50,567 bases of DNA from an uncultured Lachnospiraceae bacterium (GTDB lineage Bacteria; Bacillota; Clostridia; Lachnospirales; Lachnospiraceae), in assembly GCA_947384285.1 (NCBI GenBank), contig CANDGI010000022.1:1-50567 (forward strand), given 5' to 3'. Positions 1,178 to 47,096 of this stretch are shown piece by piece. The notes beneath the pieces are model-generated. The model did no database searches, was not told the DNA's origin, and saw only the letters and a program-made list of their open reading frames with translations. The position numbers and the translations under genes were made by a program. The first letter of the stretch is position 1. The number at the start of each line of letters is the position of its first letter.

Positions 1178-2632
1178 ATGGGCACAATTATCGGCGAAGG
1201 AATCACATTTGACGACGTATTATTAGTTCCTGCATATTCAGAAGTTACACCGAACATGGTGGATTTGTCCACGAACTTAACGAAAACAATCAAACTGAAC
1301 ATACCCATGATGAGCGCCAGCATGGATACCGTTACAGAACACAGAATGGCAATTGCCATGGCACGCCAGGGCGGTATCGGCATTATCCATAAAAATATGT
1401 CAGTTGCAGCCCAGGCAGAAGAAGTGGATAAGGTAAAACGTTCTGAAAACGGCGTAATTACAGATCCATTTTCTCTTTCTCCCGAACATACATTGCAGGA
1501 TGCGGACAACCTGATGGCCAAGTTTCGGATTTCCGGCGTGCCCATTACAGAAAATGGAAAGCTGGCAGGCATCATCACCAACCGTGATTTAAAATTCGAA
1601 GAAGATTTCTCTAAAAAAATCAAAGAATCCATGACCTCCGAAAATCTGGTAACCGCCCGGGAAGGCATCACCCTGGAAGAAGCAAAAACAATCCTTGCAA
1701 AGGCACGGAAAGAAAAGCTTCCGATTGTGGATGAGAATTTCAATCTCAAAGGCTTGATTACCATTAAAGATATCGAAAAACAAATCAAATATCCTTTGTC
1801 TGCCAAAGATGAGCAGGGAAGGCTTCTGTGCGGAGCCGGCGTGGGCATCACCGCCAATATGATGGAACGGGTCGACGCCCTTGTCAATGCCAAAGTAGAC
1901 GTGATTGTAGTGGATTCCGCCCACGGACATTCCAAAAACATCCGGGACGCTGTAGTGCAAATCAAATCCGCTTATCCTGAATTACAAGTAATCGCTGGAA
2001 ACGTTGCAACCGGAGCAGCTGCCAAAATGCTGATTGAAGCCGGTGTAGATGCGGTAAAGGTGGGCATCGGGCCTGGCTCCATTTGTACCACCCGGGTGGT
2101 TGCAGGTATCGGCGTTCCCCAGATTACCGCTATTATGAACTGCTACAATGTGGCAAAGGAATACGGCATCCCTATCATTGCAGACGGCGGCATCAAATAT
2201 TCCGGCGACATGACCAAAGCAATTGCTGCCGGGGCTAACGTATGTATGATGGGAAGCATTTTCGCCGGCTGCGACGAAAGCCCGGGAACCTTTGAATTAT
2301 ATCAGGGCAGGAAATACAAGGTATACCGGGGCATGGGTTCCTTAGCCGCTATGGAAAATGGTTCCAAAGACCGCTATTTCCAACAGGATGCCAAAAAGCT
2401 GGTGCCGGAAGGCGTGGAAGGGCGGGTTGCCTACAAGGGAACCGTAGAGGATACCGTATTCCAATTAATCGGCGGCCTCCGTTCTGGTATGGGCTACTGC
2501 GGCGCACCTACCGTGGAAGCCTTAAAAGAAAACGGGCAGTTTATCAAAATCTCTGCTGCATCCTTAAAGGAAAGCCATCCCCATGATATCCATATCACCA
2601 AGGAAGCCCCCAATTACAGCATTGATGAATAA
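1178..2632 (+). CDS. guaB: Inosine-5'-monophosphate dehydrogenase
   Basis: 484 residues, the usual length. The enzyme oxidises IMP to XMP with NAD+, the first committed and rate-limiting step of GMP synthesis, in the cytosol. The N-terminus [15 protein letters not shown] is characteristic. Two CBS domains interrupt the barrel at roughly residues 93-205. The catalytic loop GPGSICTTR places the nucleophile at Cys303, and a flap region near GSKDRYFQ and the K+-site region are intact. ATG follows AGCGAGG at normal spacing. It appears monocistronic. Its last codons are part of a 63-base-period duplication running into the 3' region. Confidence 0.97.
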
Positions 2633-2713
2633 ACAATTGGGCTTGTAATAGGTGTATTGCCGCAAGAAACACGTAACATCTGCATGGATGAATAAACAAT
2701 TGGGCTTGTAATA
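2619..2713 (+). repeat. Duplicated guaB 3' end (63-base period)
   Basis: Positions 2619-2650 and 2682-2713 match at 31 of 32 bases. The first copy holds the last guaB codons and stop (GATGAATAA); the second lies wholly downstream and repeats the stop codon. No T-rich intrinsic terminator is obvious after it. Confidence 0.85.
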
Positions 2714-2800
2714 ACAGCATGAAACCGCCAAAAATATTGTCAGCCATAAAATTATTACGATTTTTTTAATTTTTCCCGGAATAATCCTTTACTTTTCCGG

Positions 2801-2862
2801 TATAATGTGTTACTATAGTCCCATGCTTTAAACACATATAGCATAGATTATTTTTTGGAGGT
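2801..2862 (+). promoter_or_regulatory. Cold-shock gene -10 box, leader and ribosome site
   Basis: TATAAT lies at 2801-2806, without a clear -35 box. An A/T-rich leader of about 60 bases follows, as is usual for cold-shock mRNAs, ending in GGAGGT at 2857-2862. The ribosome site decides the start at 2870: an upstream in-frame TTG would overlap it. Confidence 0.55.
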
Positions 2863-2869
2863 ACTTGAC

Positions 2870-46826: not shown

Positions 46827-46874
46827 TTATTTCCTCCTGAATGCCGCAACCATCTATTTCGCGGCACTTCTTTT

Positions 46875-46903
46875 ATTATATGTTTATTTTCCTTGAAAAT
46901 CAA
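46875..46903 (-). promoter_or_regulatory. ftsH promoter
   Basis: On the minus strand TTGATT (46898-46903), 17 bases, TATAAT (46875-46880); the ftsH start is about 50 bases on, behind AGGAGG. It probably drives the run down to the lipid kinase. Confidence 0.7.
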
Positions 46904-47000
46904 TACAATTCTCTGAAACTTTTGTGCCGGGTTTCTAAACTTTTTATAAACAAGCCTGCCATTTTACCATTCCTCCAGCGGCTCTTGCATTCCAAAGCAT

Positions 47001-47096
47001 CCCATTGGGATTATGCCCAAGTACCCCATTGGGATTATACCCAAGTATCCCTTTGGGATTATGCCTAAGTATCCCTTTGGGATTATGCCCATTACA
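47001..47096 (+). repeat. Four-copy 24-base tandem repeat upstream of pyrG
   Basis: Units start at 47001, 47025, 47049 and 47073 with consensus CCCATTGGGATTATGCCCAAG and a TAT end. Within a unit GGGAT and ATCCC of the next can pair. It occupies most of the ftsH-pyrG divergent gap (46827-47202) outside the promoters. The unit length keeps reading frame, but no gene is supported there. Confidence 0.93.

Follow-up and report, generated by a model that had tools for sequence, protein, structure and literature searches.

Short tandem duplications between genes were found to be several times commoner in the genome of an uncultured Lachnospiraceae bacterium (G000) than in the relatives sampled. With the same scan applied to all three samples (score ≥24, spacing 15–1000), 69 junction or intergenic events were counted in 135,268 intergenic bases of G000 (51.0 per 100 kb), 18 in 135,425 intergenic bases of 13 congeners pooled (13.3 per 100 kb) and 12 in 107,195 intergenic bases of outgroup loci (11.2 per 100 kb), a density 3.8 times that of the pooled congeners and 4.5 times that of the outgroup. 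Short tandem duplication is a known class of mutation (PMC5677150, PMC8355091) and only its rate and size class in G000 are unusual, namely the high rate and a mode of about 70 bases. No description of a bacterial lineage with duplications of this kind was found in the open-access literature searched.

The G000 genome measures 3.23 Mb in 74 contigs and is 83% complete; because of this completeness and fragmentation it was treated as metagenome-assembled, and this one incomplete assembly represents the species. The window, the whole stretch of 50,567 nucleotides that was analysed, is all of contig 22. The genus counts 29 species in the genome collection used, and near relatives among the named loci are Lachnospiraceae bacterium 3-1, Petralouisia muris and Eubacterium sp. 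14-2. For the density comparison, 1.25 Mb of G000 (39% of the genome, 61 loci) was taken blind to content: the window, the first 20 kb of contigs 1–20 and further consecutive stretches of contigs 1–8. The congener sample was 1.12 Mb from 13 of the 28 congeners, with partly overlapping stretches in G002 (about 11 kb) and G003 (about 9 kb) and with four stretches, from G018, G024 and G014, chosen for a repeat-family match, which if anything inflates the density of the relatives. The outgroup sample was 1.06 Mb in 57 loci with lower WhiA identity, taken as lying outside the genus. Open frames of at least 90 aa served as genes, without a gene finder, and score thresholds vary from 14 to 24 between analyses. 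The putative name guaB is carried over from an earlier note on the window; the other genes with a stop codon inside a repeat were identified from their proteins.

Tandem repeats in the window and in the sampled genome

An ungapped scan of the window yielded 18 non-overlapping tandem or near-tandem loci, each of which was also found by TRF or by a second repeat search. Twelve lie at gene junctions, in agreement with the earlier note, which had counted at least a dozen gene boundaries with tandem copies, and six lie in frame within genes. At the stricter score of the genome-wide scan 13 loci remain, nine of them counted as junction or intergenic.

The six genic loci, all on the reverse strand, all with periods divisible by three and all detected by TRF and the ungapped scan, comprise two in the sensor kinase gene (an 18-bp tandem repeat at 3450–3493 and a 45-bp repeat of 2.8 copies at 3511–3638), an 18-bp tandem repeat in a DnaJ-like gene (10486–10542), a 30-bp repeat in the trigger factor gene, at its 3′ end (26017–26094), and two sets in the C-terminal tail of FtsH (degenerate 33/66-bp repeats at 44321–44490 and 27-bp repeats in about five copies at 44743–44880). 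In-frame repeats had been claimed for FtsH, the sensor kinase and a lipoprotein; the first two are confirmed, the lipoprotein was not identified, and the trigger factor and DnaJ-like genes are the other carriers. The FtsH protein (963 aa; 43935–46826, reverse strand) extends far past its M41 domain, whose end is near residue 613, in a C-terminal tail that bears the repeats.

Eight junction loci carry units without dispersed relatives. The 3′ end of guaB (2619–2713, forward strand) shows a 32-bp repeat, a 31-bp filler and the 32-bp repeat again (spacing 63, 97% identity) and spans the stop codon at 2630–2632. On the reverse strand, a 42-bp repeat, 18-bp filler and second 42-bp repeat (4730–4831) hold the stop of the response regulator gene in one copy and the start of the kinase gene in the other; a 37-bp unit in 3.6 copies covers the 3′ end of the ABC ATPase gene (5495–5628); and a 56-bp repeat with one indel and a 14-bp filler covers the stop of the FtsX permease gene (6378–6502). 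The first and last of these three were found by the ungapped scan and by gapped and congener alignment. Further loci on this strand are a full tandem duplication of 71 bp over the 3′ end of a hydrolase gene (18054–18199), whose copies are 97% identical and which confirms the near-identical 71-base copy of the earlier note, a degenerate 38-bp tandem repeat between recJ and an MCP-domain gene (20096–20231) and a full tandem duplication of 48 bp over the hprK stop (40911–41009). Between the divergent genes upstream of ftsH, a 24-bp unit stands in four copies (46989–47089; TRF and ungapped scan). The inclusion of the upstream stop codon in the repeat, asserted for eight genes, was recovered for guaB, the response regulator, the ABC ATPase, the FtsX permease, the hydrolase, whiA and hprK. 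It fails for murB: in the rapZ/murB gap (38468–38567) neither TRF nor the second repeat search nor the ungapped scan gave a tandem repeat.

REP/BIME-like elements are dispersed intergenic repeats, and about a quarter of the G000 events (18 of 69) are likewise dispersed elements in tandem. The units at four of the 12 window junctions recur elsewhere in the genome, so the view that every junction has a sequence of its own does not hold for these or for the 18 events of the sample. They are a pair with a spacing of 70 bp that separates the DnaJ-like gene from the flavodoxin gene (9875–10004, reverse strand), a pair with a spacing of 74 bp (62 bp, 81%) that separates truA from recJ (22018–22153, reverse strand, from the repeat search), a 37-bp exact repeat with a spacing of 77 (27368–27481, from the ungapped scan) and, from the repeat search and Rfam, a 51-bp repeat with a spacing of 79 after whiA (36492–36621, reverse strand). 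The third belongs to a dispersed family of 77–79 bp, often in tandem, with 42 matches in 23 of the 61 own loci and four matches in one of 180 relative loci; other members are at L037:19034-19213 and L049:809-1036, among others, and positions 1–87 of the window also match. For the families at 22018–22153 and 9875–10004 the own loci gave 15 and eight matches, respectively, and the 180 loci searched in relatives gave none. The repeat after whiA overlaps a GA-cis RNA (RF02987, 36527–36609, reverse strand; 44.4 bits against a gathering threshold of 34.7), the sole Rfam match in the window; this stretch is present in two near copies and has relatives at many places across the genus.

It is quite improbable that tandem arrangements of such elements, whether palindromic, REP-like or GA-cis RNA, explain the pattern as a whole, with no local duplication. 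They account for the 18 events and four window junctions, and the 77–79 bp family is frequent, but, unlike REP/BIME-like repeats, 51 of the 69 events are locus-specific, having no relative in the 1.25 Mb sampled, and several copies include the 3′ end of the coding sequence at their own locus. If these events arose locally, the genus has two kinds of intergenic repeat, local duplications beside dispersed families.

Bacterial close direct repeats and slipped-mispairing duplications form tandem or near-tandem copies that decay with age and lie mostly outside genes. Compared with these, G000 has a rate several times that of its sampled relatives and a narrow spacing class. Events with spacings of 55–82 bp numbered 47 in G000, four in the congeners and none in the outgroup (p = 1.3e-10 and 2e-12); for spacings of 20–82 the counts were 69, 11 and four. 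At spacings of 83–1000 no event was seen in G000, where about 6–9 were predicted from the rates of the relatives, against six in the congeners and seven in the outgroup. Within genes, tandem repeats stood at 7.5 per 100 kb in G000 versus 1.8 in the outgroup loci. A comparison with shuffled sequence and with relatives had been proposed in the earlier note; 0.0 repeats were expected after dinucleotide shuffling of the intergenic sequence in the first sample of 450 kb, and the relatives are several-fold lower. Densities of individual congeners lie between 0 and 45.7 per 100 kb, but each is based on 0 to 3 events, so that the pooled value is preferable.

Slippage at the usual rate, with the earlier note having seen a chance cluster, is a highly improbable explanation. 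Outgroup loci do carry short tandem duplications (the 12 in 107 kb of intergenic sequence) and single congeners reach 33–46 per 100 kb, on one or two events each. However, the excess remains when the window is left out (60 events in 129,783 intergenic bases, 46.2 per 100 kb), as expected for the lineage-wide mutational habit that had been suspected, and the sizes are unlike those of the outgroup, whose events skip the range from 51 to 120 bp.

Gains at junctions and position relative to genes

Matching gene ends were found in at least one of four congeners for 23 of the 25 junctions tried. Gap length alone is not evidence of a gain, whereas the copies themselves are, because other junctions of the relatives can be longer, and some indeed exceed those of G000. 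Counter-evidence comes from three window junctions: the G003 gap is longer than that of G000 at ABC/FtsX and at hprK (135 bp versus 120 in G000, 72 in G002 and 35 in G001) and about equal between the MCP-domain gene and recJ (138 versus 142 in G000, 64 in G002 and 62 in G001). The G000 gap exceeds that of G002 by 73 bp at guaB, 142 bp between the DnaJ-like and flavodoxin genes (157 versus 15), 96 bp at the hydrolase and 48 bp at hprK, and that of G003 by 104 bp between ATPase and regulator (130 versus 26, with 21 in G001). In the alignments of these five junctions the extra copy is present only in G000. At guaB, G002 has neither filler nor second copy, and the filler is absent from all congeners examined; at the hydrolase, G002 and G001 are without the second copy. 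The recJ/truA junction aligned poorly with the congeners. Alignment of the same junctions between relatives, as the earlier note had suggested, identifies several junction copies as gains of the G000 lineage.

The distribution of the events relative to genes is uneven. Of the two-copy events of 55–82 bp, 23 unique ones lay at junctions (17.0 per 100 kb), whereas within genes 13 were in frame (1.17 per 100 kb) and two off frame (0.18 per 100 kb), the latter being about 90 times rarer than those at junctions. At least one stop codon was overlapped by 30 of the 51 unique arrays, against about 16 expected, and a start codon only by four, against 12.8 expected. The pheS and pheT genes are separated by a stop-spanning array. 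Both a start and a stop are covered by ten arrays, and eight of these are flanked by genes of different known families: the regulator/kinase pair of the window, rsmD-like/cinA, panD/panC, ddl/acyltransferase, gatC/amidase, a further regulator/kinase pair, cdsA/uppS and sheath/Pvc16. The remaining pair of arrays, L250 and L051, each have one flanking member without a family. These proportions show indirectly that purifying selection removes genic events unless they are in frame and keeps those at junctions, especially across stops; the proposal that selection would tolerate a copy spanning a stop codon is in line with them.

Size and form of the duplications

The 51 unique events have spacings of 20–76 bp, 25 of them at 66–76, and the 18 that match other places in the sample have spacings of 57–82; taken together, more than half of the duplications fall at 60–82 bp. 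Copy identity ranges from 0.74 to 1.0, a spread as expected if the duplication process is continuing. About 2.5 or more copies are present in 21 of the 51 unique arrays. The size class is not confined to G000 but recurs in the relatives at a low rate: among 30 events in the relatives (de-duplicated, score 22), eight are of 65–73 bp, in seven species, and G005, a single contig of 3.38 Mb, has a 70-bp event as its sole junction or intergenic event in 160 kb.

An artefact of short-read metagenome assembly, through strain mixture or k-mer limits, was considered as a source of the excess and is improbable. The assembly is fragmented and incomplete, as described above, and it breaks at tandem repeats, since several contigs begin inside one (L038:1-131, L044:1-146, L050:1-131, L051:1-73). 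Assembly may also matter for the upper size edge, because no event lies above 82 bp and the class of 83–1000 bp is empty. Unresolved identical copies would not be the only cause of this edge, as the 27 unique events with an identity of 0.93 or less likewise stop at a spacing of 76. Against an artefact stand the arrays of 2.5 or more copies, the rarity of off-frame events within genes, the 70-bp event in the single-contig G005 and the fact that junction arrays part distinct genes such as pheS/pheT, gatC/amidase, cdsA/uppS and panD/panC.

Contiguous or near-contiguous copies had been described in the window, and full tandem copies do exist, but several loci consist of a repeat, a filler and the repeat again. 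By gapped alignment this form was found in 13 of the 51 unique events, with repeats of 32–61 bp and fillers of 9–37 bp; in six of them the repeats measure 32–39 and the fillers 31–37 bp. The sum of repeat and filler is nearly constant, at 60–76 in 12 events and 48 in one, and repeat and filler length are negatively correlated (r = −0.74; permutation of the fillers gave 0.0016 for the maximum sum and 0.37% of trials for the spread). This near-constancy is based on the 13 events in G000 and a few in relatives. The full duplications overrun one period by 3–8 bp in 11 of 15 cases, by 0 in two and by 12 and 24 in the remaining two, some mismatches being allowed, and a short overrun of this kind fits annealing at a few bases. 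No shared motif was seen at the duplication edges on inspection by eye.

Several sources of the filler were tried. As a decayed copy of the flank it gave p <0.06 in just two of 25 comparisons, and no inverted match of more than 11 bases was present within 600 bases. One 36-bp filler searched genome-wide had no match beyond chance, and for the 13 fillers against 39% of the genome the best listed matches outside the locus were of at most 20 bases.

A filler of this size could also be a spacer, integrated at an ectopic site by CRISPR adaptation proteins as about 36 bases of repeat with about 34 of foreign filler. The six events with similar repeat and filler lengths have these dimensions, and Cas1, found in 14 of the 29 genus genomes, occurs in four of seven congeners with 65–73 bp events (G011, G012, G019, G020). 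Cas1 was not found, however, in G000 (83% complete) or in G003, G005 and G007, which carry such events; searches of viral contigs with three filler cores gave no exact match; and other events have repeats of up to 61 bp or are full duplications without filler. This origin is therefore extremely improbable.

Small tandem duplications in mammals and plants are ascribed to fill-in at double-strand breaks followed by end joining that depends on Ku80 (PMC8355091). In the corresponding explanation for G000, offset nicks in both strands would give staggered breaks; these would be filled in and then joined again, in some cases with filler, the length of the overhang setting that of the duplication. 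The G000 duplications share with those of mammals and plants a size below 100 bp and a compatible filler, as well as the signature described there (PMC8355091), and 13 of the 51 unique events have the repeat-filler-repeat form; joining at microhomology would likewise suit the edge overlap, which is 0–8 bp for 13 of the 15 full duplications. On the other hand, Ku was not found in any of the 29 genus genomes (among 14 control genomes only B. subtilis matched), so that in these bacteria an end-joining route other than Ku would be needed, and the constrained quantity is the sum of repeat and filler, not the repeat alone. Staggered breaks are an unlikely source, if one to be taken seriously.

Repair genes and the possible origin of the duplications

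In the reading we favour, to which we give a probability of about 55%, DNA synthesis or repair in this lineage would generate tandem duplications of about 20–80 bp at a raised rate. Either the nascent strand or a displaced flap about 70 nt long would be re-used slightly backward on the template; sometimes a non-local filler would come first, and about 70 nt would thereby be inserted. Such re-use is favoured because it explains the size, the short homology at the edges and the lack of a shared sequence, although by itself it does not account for the near-constant sum of repeat and filler. We infer a replication or repair step behind the duplications. Replication slippage, an unusual repair polymerase and a missing surveillance factor had been offered as causes in the earlier note, and none of them could be pinned down.

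The repair genes examined did not reveal a factor that would raise the rate. PolA (907 aa) has an intact nuclease part (PF02739 match, E = 1.1e-59), close to that of G002, which speaks against a missing flap nuclease of PolA; two changes proper to G000 lie at columns otherwise invariant among nine aligned sequences. ExoVII and RecJ are both present, as is a full-length RecG-like protein, which scores 655.9 bits against a cut-off of 659.4 (3.5 below).

Loss of the hairpin nuclease SbcCD is a very improbable cause of the raised rate. SbcD was above the cut-off in 25 of the 29 genus genomes, the four others being G000, G006, G014 and G015, but its absence from G000 is unsure given the incomplete assembly. 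The remaining three, rated 99% complete, show no clear rise in the small samples covered: G006 and G015 have no event in about 5.6 kb of intergenic sequence, where about 2.8 were expected at the G000 rate, and G014 has five in about 17.3 kb at the laxer score of 20. The window units are moreover not hairpin-prone, seven of seven folding no more strongly than their shuffles (z from −1.32 to 1.07).

The closest analogy by size is with yeast rad27/FEN1 mutants, in which short insertions mediated by direct repeats arise genome-wide, with a unique part of 1–91 bp and flanking direct repeats of 1–21 bp, while earlier reports cited in the same source give duplications of 5–108 bp (PMC5677150). As in these mutants, the duplications of G000 are short, in tandem, spread over the genome and without shared sequence (PMC5677150). 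Set beside the 5–108 bp with flanking repeats given there, the unique events of G000 measure 20–76 bp and the edge overlap is 3–8 bp in 11 of 15 full duplications, several with mismatches. Unlike the yeast mutants, which are without the flap nuclease according to that source, G000 has an intact nuclease part of PolA, its overlap at the edges is 0–8 bp in 13 of 15, its sizes centre near 70 and filler occurs (PMC5677150).

A tentative and rather unlikely alternative to backward re-use of a strand or flap is a dedicated activity of the genus. It would insert an approximately constant length of about 70 nt, made up of copied flank and a variable foreign or untemplated filler, and so set the spacing and not the repeat length. 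Such an activity would be strongly raised in this species and would remodel its operon junctions.

If backward re-use at a raised rate is the right reading, G000 would represent a natural duplication-mutator lineage with a length-limited product and would allow one to ask which bacterial factor limits short duplications. It would also show how operon genes with a close stop and start, such as the regulator and kinase genes at 4730–4831, become separated while both remain unbroken.
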